Origin: an uncultured Kiloniellaceae bacterium
GTDB taxonomy: Bacteria > Pseudomonadota > Alphaproteobacteria > Kiloniellales > Kiloniellaceae
NCBI GenBank assembly: GCA_947493695.1
Contig: CANLSF010000002.1
Span: 1 to 64,000, forward strand
Length of the DNA: 64,000 nucleotides
Reading direction: 5' to 3'
Part shown: piece by piece, positions 35,796 through 46,635 of the stretch
How the letters are laid out: each line of letters opens with the position of its first letter
How positions within the stretch are numbered: position 1 is the stretch's first letter
The notes under the pieces: model-generated
What the model was told of the DNA's origin: nothing
The model's database searches: none
Seen by the model: the letters and a program-made list of their open reading frames with translations, nothing else
Made by a program: the position numbers and the translations under genes

Positions 35796-36764
35796 CGCAG
35801 TTCGATCCGGACTGTCATGCCGCGCTCCGACCTCCTGCCCAACGGGCAATGGTCTCATTAAATTGCCGACCTGCCTCCATCTGCCTCTTCCAGTGAAGGT
35901 CTCGGAGAGATGAAACAGGTCGACTTCGGTTTATTTCACACAAACATATGCGCAAACTTCGTATTGTACATTTGATCATGCAATAAATTTATTCAATACA
36001 AATATTTTGTGTTAAAATATTCTAATCCCCTGCTCCTGAAGTCTCTTCAGGCAACACGGGCCTGAAACCGGTTTCAGAAAAACTCTCTGAAGTTACGGCA
36101 CGGAAGAGACACTCCTCATGCGAGTAAAACAACCACTTTCAGGTTGTAGTACGGAGTCGATCCTACGCGCTGCGTTCTGTTCGCACACCATTCCAAAATC
36201 ACGGACGTGTTAACCGCAACAATTAACCGAATATTTACTAAAAATTAACACTCTCTTTACATACTTGTTTGTGTTCAGACGAAATAAGACCCAACTACAA
36301 ACTAAATCACAGGAAATTTATCTTATCGCACGCGAACGAGACTCCTGTGATCCGATAGAGGATGAATCTTATCCCATTTCTTCAGATACATCGTACAACT
36401 CCAGCGCTCGCCGTTTCCGTGGTAGAATCTGGATTGCAGATATATTTCTGTAGATTGACCAAATAGTTAACAGGAGTGAGCGCAATTCCAAGTGTTTACG
36501 TTCTGGAAAAACGACATAATCCTATATGGTTAAGCCTAAAAAGATCTGATCAACCGAATGAGTACCATTAACGATTGAAGGAAATAAAACCTAAAATTAA
36601 GCATCAAAATTTGCTAAAATTTGAATCTAGTTTTTCCCTTCCCGTTAAAAAAAGGGCAGCATGTAGCAAGATGTATGCTGGCCGGGTGGGAAATGAACCC
36701 GTTGCAAGTGTACCGGTTGGCGAGACCCGGGGGACCGCTTGATTTTTTAGTATGGAGAACAAGA
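35796..36764. other. 969-base AT-rich gap between the cys operon and rpfF
   Basis: This gap separates the divergent sulfur operon and DSF synthase gene. Close to the cys side it has AATAAATTTATT and near-palindromic ACAAATATTTTGT. Next comes a CTGAAG / CTTCAG hairpin and a perfect 16-base palindrome at 36062-36077. From about 36200 to 36640 it is very AT-rich with repeated TTAAC words. Short open frames here lack ribosome-binding sites and protein-like composition, so I call no gene. Confidence 0.5.
36062..36077. promoter_or_regulatory. Perfect 16-bp palindrome, possible operator
   Basis: CTGAAACCGGTTTCAG reads the same on both strands. It lies about 270 bases upstream of cysG and 690 upstream of the rpfF-like gene. 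No repressor is encoded next to it. It could be an operator or a site of structure; no second copy is seen in the window. Confidence 0.4.
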
Positions 36765-37778
36765 ATGCTCGAACAGCTTGGCACGACGCCAGAAACTGTT
36801 GAGAAACACGTCTCACCGAACCCGCTCTTCGACCGCAACTCAGCCGTAGCGTCGTCCACAGCGGAAAAAGCCCGGACAGCAGTTAAGCGGGCGATGGCAG
36901 ACCGAACTGTCGATATAAAGGAAGAACTCTCAAACCTGGATCTCGAAGAAATGGAGTTGGCTTTCTCCGCCAGGGATGAGGTTTGCACTTGCTGGTTCGA
37001 CTTTGAAGACCGCCCCAGTTTCACTCCTGCCCTGCTGAATGACATCAGCAAGGTTCAGCAGAGTCTGCGCGCGTCTTTTGAAAAAGCCGATCCGCGCGCA
37101 AACAAACTGAAATATCTTGTCTGGGCATCGCGTATGCCGGGCGTCTGGAACCTGGGTGGCGACCTCAGCCTCTTTGCCGACCTGATCCGGAACGAAGAAC
37201 GTGACAGGCTGCGTGAGTACGCATATCGGGTCGTGCGTGAAGGCTATGCGAACTGGACAAACCTGAACCTGCCCATCATTACCGTCGCGCTCATTCAGGG
37301 AGATGCACTTGGCGGTGGTTTCGAAGCAGCTCTCTCCAGCAATCTGATTGTCGCGGAGCGGAGTGCGAAATTCGGCCTGCCGGAAATTCTCTTCAGTCTC
37401 TTCCCGGGCATGGGCGCCTACAGTTTCCTCTCTCGCCGGATTGCGCCCGGTCGCGCGGAACGGATGATTATGAGCGGACGCCTGTACACGGCGGAAGAAC
37501 TCTACGAACTCGGCATTGTCGATGTCCTGGCGGATGATGGCTGTGGCGAAGAAGCCTTGCACCAATACATTGCCAAGAACGACCGGCGACATGCGGCGCA
37601 TCGGGCAATCTTCCAGGCACGCCAACGCATCAACCCGGTGACCTTGAAAGAAATGATGGATATCACCGACCTCTGGGTCGATACCGCGATGACGCTTGAT
37701 GAAGCGGACCTGAAGAAGATGTCACGCCTGGTGTCAGCGCAGGACAGGCGCCGTGAACGCGTTCTGAAATCGGCCTGA
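36765..37778 (+). CDS. rpfF: RpfF-like DSF (diffusible signal factor) synthase, crotonase fold
   Basis: The 337-residue protein is a crotonase-fold enzyme of the RpfF group, which makes cis-2-unsaturated fatty acid quorum signals from acyl-ACP. Diagnostic blocks are LKYLVWASRMPGVWNLGGDLSLFADLI, VALIQGDALGGGFEAAL and KFGLPEILFSLFPGMGAYSFL. Glu187 and Glu207 sit 20 residues apart, the same spacing as the catalytic Glu141/Glu161 of Xanthomonas RpfF. About 45 residues are added at the N-terminus relative to the Xanthomonas enzyme. The ATG at 36765 follows GGAG at 8 bases. It converges with an RpfC-like kinase, as in Xanthomonas. An ordinary enoyl-CoA hydratase is unlikely given these motifs. Confidence 0.88.
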   Translation: MLEQLGTTPETVEKHVSPNPLFDRNSAVASSTAEKARTAVKRAMADRTVDIKEELSNLDLEEMELAFSARDEVCTCWFDFEDRPSFTPALLNDISKVQQSLRASFEKADPRANKLKYLVWASRMPGVWNLGGDLSLFADLIRNEERDRLREYAYRVVREGYANWTNLNLPIITVALIQGDALGGGFEAALSSNLIVAERSAKFGLPEILFSLFPGMGAYSFLSRRIAPGRAERMIMSGRLYTAEELYELGIVDVLADDGCGEEALHQYIAKNDRRHAAHRAIFQARQRINPVTLKEMMDITDLWVDTAMTLDEADLKKMSRLVSAQDRRRERVLKSA

Positions 37779-37861
37779 TCCCCTCAGGCAAGCCTCCTTC
37801 AGCAAAATGAAGCAGAGGCCAGGCCTGCGGCAAAGGTAACGCGCCTGCTGCATTGAACGGG

Positions 37862-37908
37862 ACGGCTCCGAAGAACATCACAGAGATGTCTGACTTCGGA
37901 GCCGTTTT
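37862..37908 (+). terminator. Terminator of the rpfF-like gene
   Basis: ACGGCTCCGAAG and CTTCGGAGCCGT form a perfect 12-bp stem followed by TTTT on the plus strand, 84 bases after the rpfF stop and just before the end of the convergent kinase gene. Confidence 0.7.
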
Positions 37909-37941
37909 CCTGTGCAATTTCGCTATTGTGCGCTTTAGCTT

Positions 37942-40818
37942 TTAATGTGGCGTCGCCCGCCGGTCCTGAGAAAGTTCCCGTCCAACGGCGACCTTGACCA
38001 TCTCGAACTCATCGTTCAATTCAGCCAAAAGCGTGCGGGTGCGGTTGTTGTCCCGGTCTGGTCCAAATTCGCGCAGATCCAGCAACAGACGGACCATGCG
38101 CTTGGCTCCCACATAGCCTGCGCTGCTGCGCATCGCATGAGCCTCGTCATGGAAGGCAGCCAGATCACCGTTGTCGAAGGCTTCGTTCAAACTGATCAAG
38201 GTCGCAGCGGCGTCTGCCAGAAAGCCGTCAAAGATCTCCGCAATAAAGGCCTCGTCGGTATCGAGCGCACGAAGCGCGTCCAGAGCATCAGGATCGAGAA
38301 CCGTCTCGTTTGAAGCTCCACCATATTTCGGATGGGCCGAAATGGGTGTGATGAGCTGAACCGATGGCTTTGGCGCGGCCACATCATCAGTTTCACGTGA
38401 GCGAACAACTGTCTCATCAATTAGGGTTCCGCCCCCGACAGTAAGCTCCCGCACGAGTGCAAGCAGCTGCTGTGCTTCCACCGGTTTGGTGAGATAACCG
38501 TCCATTCCGGCTTCCCGGCAATCCTGTTTCGCCTGTTCCGTCGCGTCAGCGGTCAGGGCGACAATCGGCATATGCGGCTCTTCCGTATTAAGAACCCGAT
38601 ACATCTTCGTGAGATCGAGACCGCTCGTGCCCGGCATATTGATGTCGGTCAGGACAATGTCAAAAACCTCAACATCGAGGCGATCCAGGGCGTCGTCACC
38701 GTTCTCCGCTGTCTCGACCACGTGACCTGCGTTTTCCAGTACGCGGGAGATCACACTGCGGTTGGTTCGATTGTCGTCCACCAGCAGAATCTTTCGGCGC
38801 GCGAGCTTGTCAATTTCAGCCCCTTCGGCAGTCGCCTCTTCAGCATCCAGCTCGGTAATGCCAGAGCTGTAGAAGAGGCCGGCCTGATGCAACGCAGTTG
38901 AAAGAGCGTCGCTCGTCGCTGGTGCTGAGATCACCACATCGAGAGGCCAGCCTTGTTTCGCCGTGCTCTCTTCGCTTTCACTGGAGACTTCTACGACAGC
39001 GATGCCTTCGTTGCTTCCCCGGTCTCTCAGATAGCGAATCATCTCCTCGGCAAGATGATCCTGACCTCCGGCGCCTGCTGCGATCACCAGATGTCCTGTG
39101 CTGCGGTAGCGTTCCACCGCGGACACGGCTTCGTCGATCCGCTCCACAGCCTTAAAGTTCGCGCCTTCAAGCGCAGAAAGGATAAGGGATCGTTGAGGCT
39201 CAGGTGCGGAGACTACGACCGGCAACTGGTTTTCCATCTGTGATGCGGCAAGGGCATCTGGAAGCGAAGCCTCTGCAGACGCATCGGACGATGACATCAG
39301 CGAGAAGGGAATCGAGAGATTGAATTGACTGCCCTGCCCTTCCTGACTCATCACCTCGATTTCTCCGCCCATCATCTCGACGAGCTGCTTGGTGATGGTC
39401 AAGCCCAGTCCGGTACCGCCGTAGCGTCGGTTTATCGCGTCGTCTGCCTGCGTGAAGCCCTCGAAGATCGATCCGAGTTTTTCCGGTGGCACACCGATCC
39501 CCGTGTCACGGACCGTAAAGAGGATCACATCCTGCCGCCCATTGTGTTCGAGCAGGCACGCAGAAATCTCGACCTCGCCCTCGGAGGTAAACTTGATGGC
39601 GTTGCCCGTCAGGTTTACCAGGATCTGCATCAGACGCTTGGTGTCGCCGACAAGTCGGATCTGCAGACGCGCATCTAGCGAGATACGTAGCTTCAGCCCC
39701 TTTTGTTCGGCCTGGGTATGGAGCATACGCCAGACAGAAGCCACGACCTCGCAAACGTCAATTTCGTCCAGGTCCAGATTTTGTTTGCCGGCTTCAATCT
39801 TGGAGAGATCCAGAATCTCGTTGATCAGGGAAAGCAAGGCCTTCGCCGAAGTCTGCACCGTGCCCACCATCGAACGCTGGTCGGCATCCAGCGATGTCGT
39901 CTCAAGCAGACCGCCGGTCGAGATCACTGCGGTGAGTGGCGTCCGGAGTTCATGGCTCATAGTTGCCAGGAAACGACTCTTCGCCTGGCTTGCCTCTTCA
40001 GCCTGCGCCCGGGCCCGGTTGAGTTTTTTGATCAGTGTCGAGACGTATGCCGGCAGGACGATCAGCGAAATCAACAGTCCGGAGGCGATAAAGCTGTTAC
40101 TCGACCAATAGCTGCTGGTCAGAACCGCGCCGCCGAAGCCGAACGCACTGATCGCGGCGGAAAAGACCAGGAAGCTGACGCCATAACGGAAACCATTGCC
40201 AAAGGTGACCCAGAGATAGATCGGAAAGAGAACCGACGCGGGTCCGCCCCCCACCGCCAGCATGTAACTGAGTGTCAGCAGGTCCACCATTGCCATTGCA
40301 CAGCGGCGCGGCGTCGATTGCGCCGGCGAGAGAACGATGTGCAGAAGAGCCAGCCAACCAACGCAGAGCCCCCAGGCCATCGCGCGTGCAGCCTGCTCAA
40401 GGCCTTCGTGCGAGTCGATGTAAAGGCTGGCAAGCGAGAGATAGATCATCGCGACACCGCCAAGCGCCATACGGATCGTCGCCTGCTCGTGCTCACTGTC
40501 CGGCCGCTTGGCCAGAGCCTGATCAACCGCATATCGGCGTGGCCACCAGACCAGCGCCAATGCCAGTGGCGTCGCGATAAGGGAAACAATGAGTATCAAT
40601 GACTCCAGAGGCCAATCGGCGACTGGCAATCCTCTTACCAAAAACGGCGCGGCAACCACTGCAATGCTGGTAAAGGCCGCGATGATGAGGCCGACCACCG
40701 CAACGCGTGTTCGTTTGTGCAGGACTTTTGGGGCAGAAGTAGCCAAAGGCTGCGCCACAGCCTCTTCATGTGGTTGCTTCGCCACAGTGTCGCGGGTTAT
40801 GTCGCTGCCATTTTTCAT
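37942..40818 (-). CDS. rpfC: RpfC-like hybrid sensor histidine kinase (DSF receptor type)
   Basis: This 958-residue kinase has a multi-helix membrane input domain (about 38-265) containing the RpfC-type block PASVLFPIYLWVTFGNGFRYG. Then come HisKA (SHELRTP, His289), HATPase (DTGIGV, GGTGLGL, about 380-505), a receiver (about 675-790, VLTDINMPG with Asp725 and Lys778) and a C-terminal HPt domain (HDEAHAMRSSAGYVGAKRM, His894). In Xanthomonas RpfC the same order senses DSF and restrains RpfF. Residues about 530-650 form an extra receiver-like domain with no phospho-Asp motif, absent from the shorter Xanthomonas protein. The ATG at 40818 is used; a TTG at 40842 would overlap the upstream gene. 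The DSF ligand is inferred from locus and domain match. Confidence 0.85.
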   Translation of the reverse strand: MKNGSDITRDTVAKQPHEEAVAQPLATSAPKVLHKRTRVAVVGLIIAAFTSIAVVAAPFLVRGLPVADWPLESLILIVSLIATPLALALVWWPRRYAVDQALAKRPDSEHEQATIRMALGGVAMIYLSLASLYIDSHEGLEQAARAMAWGLCVGWLALLHIVLSPAQSTPRRCAMAMVDLLTLSYMLAVGGGPASVLFPIYLWVTFGNGFRYGVSFLVFSAAISAFGFGGAVLTSSYWSSNSFIASGLLISLIVLPAYVSTLIKKLNRARAQAEEASQAKSRFLATMSHELRTPLTAVISTGGLLETTSLDADQRSMVGTVQTSAKALLSLINEILDLSKIEAGKQNLDLDEIDVCEVVASVWRMLHTQAEQKGLKLRISLDARLQIRLVGDTKRLMQILVNLTGNAIKFTSEGEVEISACLLEHNGRQDVILFTVRDTGIGVPPEKLGSIFEGFTQADDAINRRYGGTGLGLTITKQLVEMMGGEIEVMSQEGQGSQFNLSIPFSLMSSSDASAEASLPDALAASQMENQLPVVVSAPEPQRSLILSALEGANFKAVERIDEAVSAVERYRSTGHLVIAAGAGGQDHLAEEMIRYLRDRGSNEGIAVVEVSSESEESTAKQGWPLDVVISAPATSDALSTALHQAGLFYSSGITELDAEEATAEGAEIDKLARRKILLVDDNRTNRSVISRVLENAGHVVETAENGDDALDRLDVEVFDIVLTDINMPGTSGLDLTKMYRVLNTEEPHMPIVALTADATEQAKQDCREAGMDGYLTKPVEAQQLLALVRELTVGGGTLIDETVVRSRETDDVAAPKPSVQLITPISAHPKYGGASNETVLDPDALDALRALDTDEAFIAEIFDGFLADAAATLISLNEAFDNGDLAAFHDEAHAMRSSAGYVGAKRMVRLLLDLREFGPDRDNNRTRTLLAELNDEFEMVKVAVGRELSQDRRATPH

Positions 40819-40831
40819 CGAGCGGACTTTT

Positions 40832-42430
40832 TCAGCCGCCAACGCTCAGCTCGTCCGGCGGCGCTTCTAAAACTCTGTCATGAGGGAAGAGGACAACGAT
40901 TGTGGTGCCAACCCCCTTCTCACTCCTGATCTGCAATTCTCCGCCATGCAGTTCAGTCAAATCGATCGAGAGCGGCAATCCAAGGCCAGTGCCAGGAACC
41001 GCCTGGGTTTCCGAGTTCCTCAGACGCCCAAAGCGCGTGACAGCAACCTTGATTTCCTCCTCGGTCATACCGACGCCATTATCGGCAACCGCGATTTCAA
41101 CACCATCCCGGCTGCTGCGCACCGAAACCGTGACCTCACCTTCCTTCAGGGTGAATTTGAGGGCGTTGACCAGAAGATTGAGAAGAATCTGCTTCACCTT
41201 CACGGGATCAACCATCAAAAGCGGAACACCCGACTCGATGTCGGTGCGGATCACGATCTTTGCTGCAGAAGCCCGCTCTTCAGCGAGACGCAGCACATCA
41301 TCCACCAGAACGGCCAGATTGACGGCCTCTTCGTGGAGTTCGATCGTACCTGCTTCGATCATCGAGACGTCGAGAATGTCCTTGATGATGTGCAGGAGCA
41401 GACTGCCACTCTCTTCAATATTGTGCGCGTAATCGCCGTATTTGTCGTTACCGATCGGACCGAGCAGCTCGGTTCCAATGACCTGCGCGTAGCCGATGAT
41501 GGCGTTCAACGGCGTGCGCAGCTCATGACTCATGTTCGCGAGGAACTCGGTTTTGCTCCGGTTCGCGACTTCCGCCAATTCCTTCGCCTGGATGAGCTGC
41601 TGTTCGGCCGCCTTTCGGTCTGTGATGTCGAAAGATACCGTCACGATGTTGGTGACCTGCCCGCTGGAGTCCCGCACCAGAGATTTTGACGTCAGGAAAA
41701 TGCGTTTGACGCTGTTGACCGTGACGAACTCTTCCTCGAACAGCGGCGGCGCTTCCCCGGTCGCGAAAGCGCGCTCATCCAACAGGATCGAGTTCTGAGC
41801 ATAGTCGTTATTCAGCAGTTCCATCGCCGTGCGGCCAACCGCTTCATCGGGGATCACGCCGAAGAGCTGGGCCTGGTAATTATTCATGAAGGCATAGCGC
41901 GCGCCGGCGGTGGTTGCCGAAATCATCGCGGGAACGGCGTCGATCACCAATAGCAGACGTTCGTGGCTCTCGGTTAAAGCGCGCTCAAGCTGGCTTTTAT
42001 CGGTTTCGTAGCGATGCTCCAGGCTTACCGCACGTTCATTCAGGAGCTTCTGATGCTCGCGCAGGCTAAGCAGATTGCGTGAGCGAGCTCTAAACTCGTG
42101 ATGATCAACCGGGCTCAAGAGAAAGTCCGTGGCCCCGGATTCAAGAGCAGCATAGCGGAAAGCCTGATCTTCGTAGGCTGTCACCACCATGACAGGGACA
42201 TCAATACAGGGCGGAAGCTCGCGGAAACGGCGGATAAACTCAGCACCGTCCATCTTCGGCATCTTAAAATCGGTAACAACCAAATCCGGGACATTGCTTT
42301 TGGACCACTCGAGTGCGGCCTGAGGTTCGGCGAAAGCCTTCACCGTATCGTTGTCACCAATCGAGCTCGCCAGCTTCTCCAGAACCCGGCGGTTGGTAAC
42401 CCTGTCATCTATGACGACGATAATCGACAT
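40832..42430 (-). CDS. Receiver-PAS-histidine kinase in the RpfG position
   Basis: A 532-residue soluble protein. The N-terminal receiver (3-120: IVVIDDRVTNRRVLEKL, VTDFKMPKMDG with Asp54, GATDFLLSPVDHHEFRARSRNLL) resembles RpfG's receiver, but Ser106 replaces the conserved Lys. A coiled coil (about 122-160), a PAS domain (about 160-275) and a HisKA/HATPase module (SHELRTP, His302; DNGVGM; GTGLGL) follow. There is no HD-GYP domain. Its stop lies 13 bases before the RpfC-like start, so the two are one operon, with this gene first, as rpfG is in the rpfGHC operon. It probably receives phosphate from the RpfC-like HPt and passes it on by its own kinase (inference). Confidence 0.88.
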   Translation of the reverse strand: MSIIVVIDDRVTNRRVLEKLASSIGDNDTVKAFAEPQAALEWSKSNVPDLVVTDFKMPKMDGAEFIRRFRELPPCIDVPVMVVTAYEDQAFRYAALESGATDFLLSPVDHHEFRARSRNLLSLREHQKLLNERAVSLEHRYETDKSQLERALTESHERLLLVIDAVPAMISATTAGARYAFMNNYQAQLFGVIPDEAVGRTAMELLNNDYAQNSILLDERAFATGEAPPLFEEEFVTVNSVKRIFLTSKSLVRDSSGQVTNIVTVSFDITDRKAAEQQLIQAKELAEVANRSKTEFLANMSHELRTPLNAIIGYAQVIGTELLGPIGNDKYGDYAHNIEESGSLLLHIIKDILDVSMIEAGTIELHEEAVNLAVLVDDVLRLAEERASAAKIVIRTDIESGVPLLMVDPVKVKQILLNLLVNALKFTLKEGEVTVSVRSSRDGVEIAVADNGVGMTEEEIKVAVTRFGRLRNSETQAVPGTGLGLPLSIDLTELHGGELQIRSEKGVGTTIVVLFPHDRVLEAPPDELSVGG

Positions 42431-42730
42431 CAAGCAGTCACTCGCATCAGATACACCCCCGCCTCCACTGGATGCCCCAACAGCGAGGACCGGAAAGCAT
42501 TCGATAAACGTACACGAAACAGCCTAAAGGTATTGTTAATGCTCTATTGATCTTACTCGAAACACACAAAACTGATTTCTACCATAAATACGCACCCACT
42601 CTACCTGCGATAATCTCAGGCGCGTGAATTAATAACCCAATAAATCAACAACATCGATGGTTAATTTTCGATTATGGCTTCATCCACCGGTTGGTTTTGG
42701 CGTAAATTCTTCCGTAAGTATACATATTTC

Positions 42731-43144
42731 TTACGGTTGCATGGCATCCGTTTCAGGTAACCATTCCTGTAAAACCAACTCCAGTGTAATACAAATTGAG
42801 TTCCTTCCTGGCAGGAATCGGCCCCCTAACACCCTGGCGTCCGGCGTTGATATGGTTCCCCGGAGATCGGCTTTCGGCCGTCCGCCCTCCCCCGGCATCA
42901 CTTCACCGCTTAAGGTCAGGATTTCAACGCCGGGTCCTTGCTCGACGAAAGTCGGCGCATCTTCACCGGCACCATTCTGCAAAACCGCGTCGACCAGGCT
43001 GCCAACTGCCGAGCGGACGACCGCAGCGCGGATTCCATTTTCGAAACAGGCCTGCTCCACGCCCTCAACCAGATCTTCATTCGGACGGAGTCGAATGACC
43101 GCGGAACGGCCATAGCTGCCTTTTTCGATCCTGGTTTCGCTCAC
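42731..43144 (-). CDS. PPC-domain (DUF296) protein, copy 1
   Basis: The 137-residue protein has the PPC/DUF296 pattern: RLRPNEDLVEGVEQACFENGIRAAVVRSAVGSL, PGVEILTLSGEV, then ADLRGTISTPDARVLGGRFLPGRN and a C-terminal ITLELVLQEW. The paired histidines found in its neighbour are missing (GGRF where GGHL is usual), so the metal site is probably lost. It starts with GTG after GGAGGG. It is last in an operon with thiolase and acyl-CoA ligase genes. PPC proteins in bacteria have no settled role; a small-molecule or CoA-related function is suggested only by context. Confidence 0.82.
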   Translation of the reverse strand: MSETRIEKGSYGRSAVIRLRPNEDLVEGVEQACFENGIRAAVVRSAVGSLVDAVLQNGAGEDAPTFVEQGPGVEILTLSGEVMPGEGGRPKADLRGTISTPDARVLGGRFLPGRNSICITLELVLQEWLPETDAMQP

Positions 43145-43204
43145 CCTTCCCTCCTCGTGTTCAGCCTGATCAAATGACCTTGAGATTGCCTCATCAAACC
43201 GAGC

Positions 43205-43765
43205 CTATGACATGGGTACAGCAGAGACCGGGTGAAAGAGGCTGTAGTTGGTCTCGCTATCATAGGCGACTTCAAAGCCGGCATTGCGCAATGGGGCTAC
43301 GATGACCACAGCTCCACCCGATCCCAGAATGCAACCTTCCAACGGCAGATGACCGCCGTGCACACGTCCCTTCGCATCCACCATCACCGCATGACAGTGA
43401 ACCAGCGGCACTCCTACCTCCCCAAGCCCGAAGATAGCATTGGCGCCCAGCAGGAGAACCGGTCCCTCCAAAACCCGAGGCGCGCCGTAGGTCGCAACCC
43501 GCGCACCGCTCTTGTCGATCATTCCGGTAAAGTAGCTGACCTTATCGAAAAGCCCTGAAATGATCTGCAGAGCGGCACTCTTGATATCCTGCCCGGAAAG
43601 CACTTTTGCCAACTCGGGGAGCAGGTCTACACCTTCACCAAGTGATAGCCGCAGTTCGGTTCCTGCCTCTGCCCACTCACACATGCGGCGCGGCAAGAGT
43701 GGCGTTCCCGGTTGCTCAATGAGACGCCGCCCTTTCCAGGTGTCGCTCTGCTGCGGGATTGTCAT
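43205..43765 (-). CDS. PPC-domain (DUF296) protein, copy 2
   Basis: A 186-residue protein whose core (LRLSLGEGVDLLPELAKVLSGQDIKSAALQIISG, then VPLVHCHAVMVDAKGRVHGGHLPLEGCILGSG) matches PPC/DUF296, with conserved His in VHCH and GGHL as potential metal ligands. It starts inside the stop codon of the acyl-CoA ligase gene (ATGA overlap), so translation is coupled. The second PPC copy downstream lacks these His residues, so the pair may form a heteromer with one active member. Confidence 0.82.
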   Translation of the reverse strand: MTIPQQSDTWKGRRLIEQPGTPLLPRRMCEWAEAGTELRLSLGEGVDLLPELAKVLSGQDIKSAALQIISGLFDKVSYFTGMIDKSGARVATYGAPRVLEGPVLLLGANAIFGLGEVGVPLVHCHAVMVDAKGRVHGGHLPLEGCILGSGGAVVIVAPLRNAGFEVAYDSETNYSLFHPVSAVPMS

Positions 43766-45369
43766 GTCCTGTCACCAGCCTCATTCTTAACCAGATCGCC
43801 GCGCGCATAGAGTTCCTCACGGATCAGGTGCTTCGGAACTTTCCCGTATCCCGACTTCGGAAGCTCATTCCAGAAAACAAACATCTGTGGAAATTTGTAA
43901 CGCGAGAGCTTGCCTTCAAGGTGTCCGAGCAATTCCGCCTTTGACAATCCCGCGAATTCCCCGCTGGAAGACCTGACGATCACAGCCACACCGGCCTCGC
44001 CCCACTTGGGATCAGGAACACCCAGCACGGCAACCTCCTCGACACCCGGATGAGTCAGCAGAACTTCCTCGGCTTCACGCGGATAGACGTTCGATCCTCC
44101 GGAAATGTACATATCCGAGGCCCTGCCCGTCAGATACAGAAACCCGCGTTCATCGAGATACCCGAGATCGCCGGTATGAAACCATCCATCCTTGAAGACC
44201 TTTGCATTGGCCTCCGGATTGTTCAGATACCCGGCAAAGACCGCGGGCCCCCGCACGCAAATCTCACCGCGCGTATTTGGTGGAAGCATCTCACCTTCCA
44301 GCCCCCGTATGGCAATCTCCATACCGCTGCGCGCAAAGCCGCAGCTGCCCACAGGCATCTCGTCATCGACAATGGAATGATCCTCAGCAGGCAGATAGGT
44401 AATGCTGCCCGTGACCTCGCCAAGGCCATAATACTGTACGATGACTTTGCCGATATTCTTGAGCGCTGCCACCTGGTCTTCCCTGTACATCGGCGCGCCG
44501 GCATAGATGACATGGCGCAGGGAAGAATGATCGTAGCGATCGACCGCCGGATGGCGGACCATACGTGTCAGGATCGTCGGAACCGTGAACATATTCGCCA
44601 CGCCATGCTCTTCGATCAGACGCCAGACCGCCTCCTCATCAAAACTGCTGCCCGGCAGCATCACAGACTTGGCTCCACGGGCAACCTGCGGCATGGCATG
44701 TACACCCGCACCGTGGGAGAGCGGCGCAACAATGAGCGACGCATCCGTCGGCCCCAGACCCGGCATCTGATCCGCAAGGTAATTGTTGACGACAAAACAC
44801 ATCTGGCCGTGAGTGAGGATCGCCGCCTTGGAGCGCCCCGTCGTTCCGGAGGTAAAGAAGTACCAGCAAGGATCGTCGTGCTCCACCGCGGCTTCAGGAA
44901 AGGCTGTGCCCAGGTTTTCCGCGACAATGGCTTCGTAATCGGTTTCGCCCTCGCGAGCAGAACCGATACAGACAACTTCGTTAAGGTGAGTGGCCTCCGC
45001 CCGCACAGCATCAACGTGATTCGGGAAAATATTCTCGTAGAGCATGACCCGGGCGCCGCTGGCAGAGCCGAGATATGCCACTTCCGGCGGAGTCAGCCGG
45101 AAGTTACAGGGCACCCAGACAGCACCGAGTTTGTAGGTGGCCCACATGGATTCGAACATCTGGTTCGAATTGCGGGAGATCACCAGGATCACATCACCCT
45201 TGCCGACACCGCGCGCACTCAGGGCCGCGGCGAGAGCGTCGACCCGGGCATTAAGCTCAGTCCAGCTCCAACTCTCCTGCCCCCAGACCAGCGCAGTTTG
45301 ATCACGATAACGCTGTGCCGCCTGAGTCAAAAAATGACCCAGGTTCATTACCGAATTGCTCTGCCTCAC
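43762..45369 (-). CDS. AMP-dependent acyl-CoA ligase
   Basis: A 535-residue adenylating enzyme with the phosphate-binding loop WYFFTSGTTGRSKAAILTH, YYGLGEVTGSITYLP, DGWFHTGDLGYLDERGFLYLTGR and the C-terminal Lys block LPKSGYGKVPKHLIREE (A10 motif). It activates a carboxylic acid to its CoA ester; chain length is not evident. A GTG at 45369 after GGGGGAG is used; an internal ATG at 45348 is possible. In Xanthomonas an acyl-CoA ligase (RpfB) also lies near rpfF, but here it belongs to a separate thiolase operon, so equivalence is not claimed. Confidence 0.92.
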   Translation of the reverse strand: MRQSNSVMNLGHFLTQAAQRYRDQTALVWGQESWSWTELNARVDALAAALSARGVGKGDVILVISRNSNQMFESMWATYKLGAVWVPCNFRLTPPEVAYLGSASGARVMLYENIFPNHVDAVRAEATHLNEVVCIGSAREGETDYEAIVAENLGTAFPEAAVEHDDPCWYFFTSGTTGRSKAAILTHGQMCFVVNNYLADQMPGLGPTDASLIVAPLSHGAGVHAMPQVARGAKSVMLPGSSFDEEAVWRLIEEHGVANMFTVPTILTRMVRHPAVDRYDHSSLRHVIYAGAPMYREDQVAALKNIGKVIVQYYGLGEVTGSITYLPAEDHSIVDDEMPVGSCGFARSGMEIAIRGLEGEMLPPNTRGEICVRGPAVFAGYLNNPEANAKVFKDGWFHTGDLGYLDERGFLYLTGRASDMYISGGSNVYPREAEEVLLTHPGVEEVAVLGVPDPKWGEAGVAVIVRSSSGEFAGLSKAELLGHLEGKLSRYKFPQMFVFWNELPKSGYGKVPKHLIREELYARGDLVKNEAGDRT

Positions 45370-45414
45370 GTCTCCCCCTGCATCGCCACAGTTCCGCTTT
45401 CCGCGGCGCCTCTT

Positions 45415-46581
45415 TTAGCGAAGAGGCTCTAGTATCGAGACGTAATTGGCAACCGCAGCGCCCCCCATGTTGAAGATCCCGGCCATCTGCGCGTTATCGA
45501 CCTGAATATCGCCGGCGGTGTTGGTGAGCTGCATTGCCGAGAGCACATGCATTGAAACACCGGTCGCGCCAATCGGATGGCCCTTGCTTTTGAGGCCTCC
45601 GGAAGCGTTGATCGGTAGCTTGCCGTCTTTATGCACCCAGCCTTCAGCAATCGCTCTAGCGCCCTGACCTTCCGGTGTAAGGCCCATGGCTTCGTACTCG
45701 ATCAGCTCGGCAATCGTGAAGCAGTCATGGGTCTCGACCAAAGAAAGATCGTCCAAGGTGATCTTCGCCTTGTCGAACGACTGCCGCCACGCGGTCTTGC
45801 AGCCCTCGAACAACGTGATATCCCGCTTACTCAGCGGCAGGAAGTCGTTGACCTGAACCGCGGAACGGAACACCACCGCCTTTTTCATGGTCAAGGCGGT
45901 CTCGACATCGGTCAGAACCAACGCGGCCGCACCATCGGAAACCAGCGAGCAATCCGTACGCTTCAGCGGTCCTGCGACAATAGGGTTCTTCTCCGAGACA
46001 TTGCGGCAGAAATCGTATCCCAGATCCTTGCGCATCTGCGCCCAGGGATTCACTGCCCCGTTCTTGTGGTTCTTGGCGGCAATCGACGCAAGCGCGTCGG
46101 ACTGATCGCCGTACTTCTGAAAGTACTTCTGCGCAATCAAGCCGAAGACGCCGGCGAAACCGCCTTCGATCTCGCCATCTTCCTTCAGGTAGGAGGCTTT
46201 GAGCAGAGTGTTGCCGATCTCCCGGCCTGCCAGGGCAGTCATCTTCTCCACACCGACAACCAGAACCACCCGGGCATGCTTTGCATCAATCGATTTTATG
46301 CCCTGGTGAATCGCGGCAGACCCGGTCGCACAGGCATTTTCGATCCGTGTCGCCGGCTTGAAACGGAAGCGGTCGTCAGTCTGCAGAACCAGCGAAGCAG
46401 GGAAAGCCTGCGGCGAAAAACCTTCATTGAAGTGACCGATCAGGATCTCGTCGACATCGTCGGGGCCGAGACCGGCGTCATCAAGCGCTTGAACTGCGAC
46501 CTTTGCGATCAGCGATTCAACATCGTCATCTTCGTGTTTTCCAAAGGCCGTATGGCTCCAACCAACGATACAGGCTGTCAT
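45415..46581 (-). CDS. Thiolase-superfamily acyl-CoA acetyltransferase (SCP2-like)
   Basis: A 388-residue protein with the nucleophile block RIENACATGSAAIHQG (active Cys) and the GLKSKGHPIGATGV block with the catalytic His. The third block ends GIFNMGGAAVAN, the N-x-GG form of SCP2/SCPx-type thiolases rather than C-x-GG of classical FadA. It may cleave or form a 3-ketoacyl-CoA. The start at 46581 follows GGAGGA. It is the first gene of an operon with an acyl-CoA ligase and two PPC proteins, and an 18-bp inverted repeat lies 55 bases upstream. Confidence 0.88.
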   Translation of the reverse strand: MTACIVGWSHTAFGKHEDDDVESLIAKVAVQALDDAGLGPDDVDEILIGHFNEGFSPQAFPASLVLQTDDRFRFKPATRIENACATGSAAIHQGIKSIDAKHARVVLVVGVEKMTALAGREIGNTLLKASYLKEDGEIEGGFAGVFGLIAQKYFQKYGDQSDALASIAAKNHKNGAVNPWAQMRKDLGYDFCRNVSEKNPIVAGPLKRTDCSLVSDGAAALVLTDVETALTMKKAVVFRSAVQVNDFLPLSKRDITLFEGCKTAWRQSFDKAKITLDDLSLVETHDCFTIAELIEYEAMGLTPEGQGARAIAEGWVHKDGKLPINASGGLKSKGHPIGATGVSMHVLSAMQLTNTAGDIQVDNAQMAGIFNMGGAAVANYVSILEPLR

Positions 46582-46635
46582 GCTTTCCTCCATCTTCAAG
46601 CAACAAGGCTTGCGCTGAGTCTGATTTGGCGAAAA

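Follow-up and report, generated by a model that had tools for sequence, protein, structure and literature searches.

To what does a receptor of the RpfC type pass its signal when the gene standing in the place of rpfG encodes another kinase? This question is raised by three genes between positions 36,765 and 42,430 of a 64,000-nucleotide stretch of DNA, the window, from an uncultured Kiloniellaceae bacterium of the Alphaproteobacteria with a genome of 6.46 Mb. A review of diffusible signal factor (DSF) signalling (PMC4504480, cited here in part, as are the other papers below) describes two core routes, RpfC-RpfG and RpfR, both acting on cyclic di-GMP (c-di-GMP), and accessory kinases such as RpfS. 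The locus in the window encodes an RpfF-like crotonase, an RpfC-type membrane hybrid kinase and a third protein, termed the partner below, which consists of a receiver (REC), a PAS domain and a histidine kinase (HK) core of HisKA and HATPase domains. It is a real variant of the Rpf/DSF system, conserved among relatives, in which a kinase takes the slot of RpfG; its phosphate flow, signal molecule and target are predicted here. We think it probable, judging from the sequences, that this is a DSF-type RpfF/RpfC quorum-sensing locus whose response regulator is itself a kinase, the HPt domain of RpfC passing the signal to this second kinase.

The open reading frame (ORF) listing of the window places the genes at 36621-37778 on the forward strand and at 37942-40842 and 40832-42433 on the reverse strand. 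Pfam assigns ECH_1 to the synthase, HisKA-HATPase-Response_reg-Hpt to the membrane kinase and Response_reg-PAS_4-HisKA-HATPase to the third protein. The rpfF-like gene converges on the rpfC-type gene, and the partner gene lies upstream of rpfC on the same strand. This arrangement had been described in an earlier note, made from the DNA letters alone, and is confirmed by the ORFs, by Pfam and by gene order in relatives, where it is identical in all four genomes of the genus and in five genomes of another family of the order. Among 61 genomes of the order searched, 11 bear rpfF, each with a convergent rpfC, and a REC-PAS-HK gene stands directly upstream of rpfC in nine of these 11, the remaining two (family f3: L028, L032) being without such a partner; the locus is hence no oddity of one genome.

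The synthase ORF has 385 codons from a TTG at 36621, and the gene probably starts at the ATG of codon 49 (36765..37778, forward strand), two of the three genus relatives having a stop in the frame ahead of this ATG. Its PRK08788 family score is 358.9 bits (cut-off 177), and its four best PDB matches (E 6e-58 to 2e-47; next best 5e-16) comprise two proteins named RpfF and a further two called crotonase or putative enoyl-CoA hydratase. A tree combined 125 survey RpfF rows with six enoyl-CoA hydratases of the window's own genome; the hydratases lie on one side of a 100* branch, on long branches of their own (branch values are quoted with a star where they carry one). This tree and the RpfC tree discussed below were quick trees with SH-aLRT branch values and no mixture model, six duplicate rows having been dropped; a long-branch warning was raised for the former, and the latter was warned of one long row. 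The score, the nearest structures and the tree rule out an ordinary enoyl-CoA hydratase, a possibility that the earlier note had marked for checking. Two Glu residues 20 apart, which that note had pointed out in its RpfF-like crotonase, are indeed present (residues 235 and 255 of the TTG ORF; 37323-37325 and 37383-37385) and align with the corresponding motifs in 3m6m, an RpfF crystal sequence, the catalytic pair of Xanthomonas campestris pv. campestris (Xcc) RpfF being E141 and E161 (PMC9040811). The pattern occurs in 127 of 131 RpfF rows; as its loose form is matched by five of the six ordinary hydratases of the genome too, the spacing was rejected as proof of a DSF synthase, and the family call rests on the PRK08788 score, the nearest structures and the tree. 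The copy in the window is the sole close RpfF relative in the genome, 12 other matches reaching at most 51 bits. Its membership of the RpfF-like crotonase branch is well supported, and a cis-2-unsaturated fatty acid is its predicted product.

The receptor (37942..40842, reverse strand; 966 aa) shows, by Pfam, alignment and trees, an input domain followed by HisKA (39787..39984, phospho-acceptor His297), HATPase, REC (38452..38790, Asp733) and HPt (37996..38235, His902). Its input domain carries RPDSEHEQ at residues 113-120, of which DSEHEQ, the DSF sensor motif of RpfC, is encoded at 40483..40500. In spacing and identity, R113, D115, S116, E117 and Q120 correspond to Xcc R15, D17, S18, E19 and Q22, which are reported to be essential for DSF detection by Xanthomonas RpfC (Cai et al. 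2017, PMC5391125; the abstract counts six essential residues, and the comparison here covers five). All five are invariant in the 11 RpfCs of the order. The domain order that the earlier note had read from the letters is therefore borne out by the Pfam domains, the sensor motif, the input domain and the tree, and the identity of the receptor as RpfC is well supported by its sequence. The protein does not match the RpfC layout of five transmembrane helices with a 22-residue N-terminal sensor. By simple hydropathy, two extra hydrophobic segments (40546-40704) precede the sensor motif (residue 115), which suggests a seven-helix input domain and makes the window protein a long variant of RpfC; among 12 proteins compared, the window's included, the extra segments are also present in L023, L025, L036, L057 and L145 and absent in L026 and L031, both relatives from the order, and in L047, L112, L169 and L173.

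The partner ORF (40832-42433, reverse strand; 533 aa) has a conserved ATG at 42430, its probable start, giving a gene at 40832..42430. Pfam, with alignment, a tree and profile comparison, places a receiver at 42083..42421 (Asp55 in TTG numbering), a PAS_4 domain at 41612..41941 and a kinase core, HisKA with His303 and HATPase, at 40877..41557. Residues D9, D10, D55, T85, H303 and N423 and those of the G box are invariant among nine aligned sequences. The usual receiver Lys of the KP motif is replaced by Ser107 (42113-42115). As the protein is without an HD-GYP output domain, it is not an RpfG; its receiver is nevertheless, as the earlier note proposed, RpfG-like, since the receiver tree groups it with the receivers of RpfG proteins.

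To see how widely the kinase form occurs, 131 rpfF loci were surveyed: 11 from the order, 80 named loci (the best 80 of at least 488 relatives), 23 from a sample of the class and 17 from a sample of the phylum. The phylum sample gave matches in 61 other genomes, of which 17 were fetched, the numerous f194 genomes being mostly passed over, and two more (G201, G337) came via the class sample. Partner types were assigned with small hidden Markov models (HMMs) built from the loci themselves, and a partner was counted if it lay within about 1500 bases of rpfC (or rpfF), L047, L060 and L155 being assigned by hand; Pfam on 24 partners agreed with the HMM types except in L149 (no HATPase_c) and L152 (weak PAS). 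The partners found were REC-PAS-GGDEF-EAL in 54 loci, REC-(PAS)-HK in 36, REC-HD-GYP in eight, REC-PAS-HisKA_2 in three and REC-PAS without an output found in two, with none found in 28. Seven loci (L035, L045, L046, L048, L062, L146, L163) are duplicates of one genome from two sources, and the distinct loci are 30 REC-HK, 53 GGDEF-EAL, eight HD-GYP, three HisKA_2 and two REC-PAS. Within the class sample, an rpfF match at E 1e-60 or better was present in 24 of 385 genomes, at 25 places. The 23 places read, which leave aside the window and one genus-mate, gave 14 REC-HK, one REC-PAS-HisKA_2, one GGDEF-EAL, four without a partner and three cut by a contig end; one of the 14, L149, has its partner on the other strand, with HisKA and no detectable HATPase_c. 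The 80 named loci include 50 GGDEF-EAL and 13 REC-HK. The kinase form is thus spread over many families of the class and is, with the form ending in GGDEF-EAL, one of two that are common in the loci read. The eight REC-HD-GYP rows all belong to other classes of the phylum, and among the loci read no linked REC-HD-GYP gene stands beside an alphaproteobacterial RpfC. The receptor gene itself was found in 107 loci and is convergent to and downstream of rpfF in 101 of them, the exceptions being L050, L067, L068, L076, L090 and L097.

The receivers of these partners share a history that can be followed in part. In all of them the Asp and Thr/Ser positions are kept; the Lys position is Ser or Thr in each of the 95 partners without HD-GYP and, among the eight HD-GYP (RpfG-type) partners, Lys in seven and Arg in one. 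In a quick SH-aLRT tree of 114 columns, which kept duplicate rows and gave a warning of long branches that meet, the 103 partner receivers share one side of a 97* branch, the outgroup being RpfC receivers together with other receivers, and the relationship of the window partner's receiver to that of RpfG is well supported on this basis. RpfG receivers branch first, followed by the other 95 partners together (94, not starred). Within the latter, the 52 GGDEF-EAL rows other than L079 and L159, which stand apart, form one clade with the two REC-PAS rows (96*), and the kinase-type rows occupy several branches at a poorly resolved base. The kinase label requires four changes on this tree, one of them forced by starred branches, and four changes are needed among the kinase, GGDEF-EAL, HD-GYP and HisKA_2 labels. 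A single origin of the kinase-type partners may be compatible with this topology. The branching would suit a history in which an RpfG-type receiver was joined first to a kinase and later to GGDEF-EAL, a direction that rests on a long-branched outgroup and 114 columns.

Receptor and output types go largely together, as the sensor residues show when sorted by partner: all five are kept in 30 of 36 kinase-type RpfCs, six of eight HD-GYP-type and both HisKA_2-type RpfCs, and in two of 54 of the GGDEF-EAL type. The sensor of the GGDEF-EAL loci (e.g. L065, L107) often reads EHEM-x-x-NR versus EHEQ-x-x-IR. These 54 loci, mostly alphaproteobacterial, resemble the window's in gene order, in the PAS_4 domain and in a receiver with Ser or Thr for Lys, but differ in their output and in the sensor Gln, which is Met, Ile or Leu in 52 of them; no published name for them was found. 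In the RpfC tree, 52 GGDEF-EAL rows, the two REC-PAS rows and the odd L149 make up a 100* clade inside the kinase-type rows. All 102 RpfCs that have a linked partner keep the HPt His; in L028 and L032, both without one, the residue is Gly or Val (Fisher p 0.0018); since these are sister genomes, the loss counts as one event, and the pattern fits a use of the HPt on the partner.

By homology, RpfF would make a cis-2-unsaturated fatty acid, which RpfC would detect via the short DSEHEQ sensor beside the membrane, autophosphorylating at His297 and passing the phosphate to Asp733 of its own receiver and on to His902 of the HPt. From there Asp55 of the partner's RpfG-type receiver may be phosphorylated, which could alter the kinase or phosphatase activity of the partner core, and the core in turn would act on a further, unlinked response regulator. 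The missing Lys suggests that the coupling of receiver to core is unlike that of an ordinary switch receiver.

Where such a route might lead is indicated by the kinase core, which is unlike that of RpfC and has a G-P-x-G ... Y-x-x-Y stretch that is common, with changes, to most of the 14 other top PdhS-model kinases of the genome. Against 82 families, TorS comes first, PdhS ranks second (187 bits) and DivJ fourth (173 bits), far below the equivalog cut-offs of 2000 and 1000; for the RpfC core, DivJ ranks 19th and PdhS lies outside the best 25. Among 33 places in the genome matched by the PdhS model, which also matches nine of 14 control genomes, Escherichia coli included, the partner is 13th and RpfC 27th. 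A tree of 37 cores, which took 20 of the 36 REC-HK rows, places the partner core on the PdhS-like side (100/100*) and unites 15 of its 20 kinase-type partners, including that of the window, in one set (90/94, not starred); this grouping is weak, since the PdhS model had served to select the own-genome rows. The genome also holds a PleD homologue (REC-REC-GGDEF; 619 bits, cut-off 474) with an adjoining DivK-like gene, so called by place and length alone, and a ChpT match (79 bits, cut-off 22.9; Caulobacter alone is positive among the 14 controls). DivJ, PleC and PdhS kinases act on DivK and PleD upstream of CckA-ChpT-CtrA (PMC3577659, PMC7003649); the window partner resembles them in its kinase-core sequence and has an H-E-L-R-T motif, including the Thr tied to phosphatase activity, but differs in its N-terminal RpfG-type receiver and its linkage to rpfC. 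From this we infer a link from the partner to DivK or PleD, and c-di-GMP may lie downstream of it. The earlier note had DSF sensing wired into a further phosphorelay rather than into c-di-GMP hydrolysis; the phosphorelay is partly supported, through the sequence identities of synthase, receptor and receiver, but the words 'rather than' are too strong, because the core resembles DivJ/PleC/PdhS kinases and a PleD homologue is present. Taken further, the idea would be that, across much of the class, a fatty-acid quorum signal enters the DivK/PleD-CckA-ChpT-CtrA network of cell cycle, motility and c-di-GMP through RpfC and a DivJ/PleC/PdhS-like kinase that bears a receiver, the receiver Lys having been lost when kinase and GGDEF-EAL partners replaced RpfG and the receptor sensor having changed along with the output. 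This extension is tentative, and we would sooner expect it to fail than to hold.

Other wirings of the same genes have to be weighed. RpfC could act in the ordinary way on an unlinked REC-HD-GYP protein or another c-di-GMP enzyme, with the REC-PAS-HK protein a neighbour that has some other job, and candidates are at hand: three proteins of the genome have an HD_5 domain, one of them, on C5, with a receiver, and the nearest paralogue of the partner's receiver (45% identity) belongs to a REC-GGDEF protein on C10 (L201:5794-9289). The genome-wide HD_5 search, which bears on the earlier note's question of an intact rpfG elsewhere, gave no protein linked to the RpfC receptor; the C5 receiver falls outside the partner-receiver group of the tree and is not of the RpfG type, and its gene comes after those for a kinase and a REC-HDOD protein, all on one strand. 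The C10 gene overlaps that of a hybrid kinase in which the RpfC input model matches nothing, and the regulator has a normal KP motif, so that the pair was rejected as a second DSF receptor pair. Such wiring, which would also leave the persistence of REC-HK beside rpfC in many loci to be accounted for, appears unlikely. An N-terminal receiver on a kinase can serve as a regulatory input. The flow might accordingly run in reverse or sideways, the partner, as an integrator or phosphate sink, using its PAS input and kinase to feed either RpfC or its own receiver; the PAS domain, the N-terminal place of the receiver and its Ser for Lys would all suit this. An output role is favoured by other lineages, where plain outputs (HD-GYP, GGDEF-EAL) joined to related receivers occupy the same slot; as the Lys is missing in the GGDEF-EAL form too, its loss does not decide between the two; we give reversed flow an equally low probability. 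Least probable, and quite improbable in our view, is that the signal is not a DSF-type quorum signal at all and that RpfF and RpfC inform each cell about its own fatty acids or membrane. All four genus genomes encode two PCC proteins, a thiolase and an acyl-CoA ligase upstream, and signal chemistry for the host organism was not found; yet the five DSF-essential sensor residues are kept, and rpfC is convergent to rpfF in nearly all loci that have it.

The predicted relay from RpfC to the partner has observations of its own to face. A receiver without the usual Lys may not be an ordinary switch, and may respond to phosphorylation in some other manner. The synthase reaches 247.9 bits against the narrow NCBIfam RpfF equivalog NF053515 (cut-off 550) and is therefore not filed under it. 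In 24 of the 131 loci rpfC is not in the stretch, six of these being cut by a contig end, so that rpfF is not always accompanied by an RpfC receptor, and the HPt His is retained by three RpfCs that lack a linked partner: L178, L179 and L036, in the last of which a contig end cuts the partner. Distances among RpfC, RpfF and partner in 29 loci, duplicates and L149 left out, are correlated (r 0.56-0.80, 0/999 permutations); plain vertical descent fits this equally, and co-evolution by distance correlation was set aside as significant yet not specific.

Compared with known systems, the locus stands closest in layout to RpfF/RpfC/RpfG of X. campestris (PMC4504480, PMC5391125), with which it shares convergent rpfF and rpfC, the RpfC domain order, the five sensor residues, a partner gene upstream of rpfC and a related receiver. 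It differs in the partner's PAS-HisKA-HATPase output in place of HD-GYP, in the Ser for Lys of the receiver, in the two extra segments before the RpfC sensor and in having no second RpfC-input-like ORF, as rpfH would be, within 27000-52000 of the window. Burkholderia RpfF/RpfR (PMC4504480) also has rpfF convergent with the sensor gene, but RpfR is a single PAS-GGDEF-EAL protein, where the window has a membrane hybrid kinase and a separate kinase. RpfS of X. campestris likewise joins PAS_4 to a histidine kinase in DSF signalling; it is soluble and binds DSF via its N-terminal PAS_4, whereas the window partner, whose gene is linked to rpfC, has an RpfG-type receiver at its N-terminus (PMC4504480). 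Clusters of rpfF-rpfG-rpfC are listed for Methylophaga, Leptospirillum, Thiobacillus and Methylobacillus in the 2015 review (PMC4504480), and a KEGG-based survey reports the RpfC-RpfG pair in alpha- and beta-proteobacteria (PMC8895600), so that RpfC in the class was already known, with RpfG reported there too. A search of open-access titles and the opening lines of abstracts, most subscription journals and bioRxiv being outside its scope, found, among the matches listed, nothing on an alphaproteobacterial RpfC whose partner is a kinase or REC-PAS-GGDEF-EAL. Quorum sensing has been tied to the CtrA relay before, in the acyl-homoserine-lactone system of Dinoroseobacter shibae (PMC4046655).

Further genes lie upstream of the partner on the same strand (42731-46599): two PCC-domain genes, an acyl-CoA synthetase and a thiolase, kept in all four genus genomes. 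The ligase was rejected as a linked RpfB, its four-gene arrangement being confined to the genus; among 130 loci searched, ligase matches above 120 bits also occur in L043, L051 and L102 and in five of the eight REC-HD-GYP loci (L173-L177), and in L043 (uncultured Rhodopila) a ligase-thiolase pair lies about 5 kb from rpfF. Several survey loci depart from the common layout. Those of the Inquilinus type (L047:13656-15765; L056:4145-5068; L060:13707-15454) have one or two short RpfC-input-like ORFs between rpfC and the partner, like Xanthomonas rpfH, and those of the Skermanella type (L037, L038, L142) have REC-PAS-HisKA_2 across rpfF on the other side, RpfC not being seen in the stretch fetched for L142. 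In L155, rpfF is flanked by two RpfC-like kinases; the L103 partner is REC-PAS only, with no output found; and in L090, L147 and L153, rpfF lies within unusually long open frames. Two GGDEF-EAL records carry unexpected titles, Burkholderiales (L072) and Mycobacterium (L060, sp. KBS0706), the latter perhaps wrongly, as its RpfC groups with Inquilinus.

With the same kind of receptor and an RpfG-related receiver joined to a kinase in many alphaproteobacterial loci, the output of this system seems to have been exchanged while its front end was kept. These loci offer a natural test set for how receivers recouple to new outputs, and for whether fatty-acid signals steer the alphaproteobacterial cell-cycle relay.

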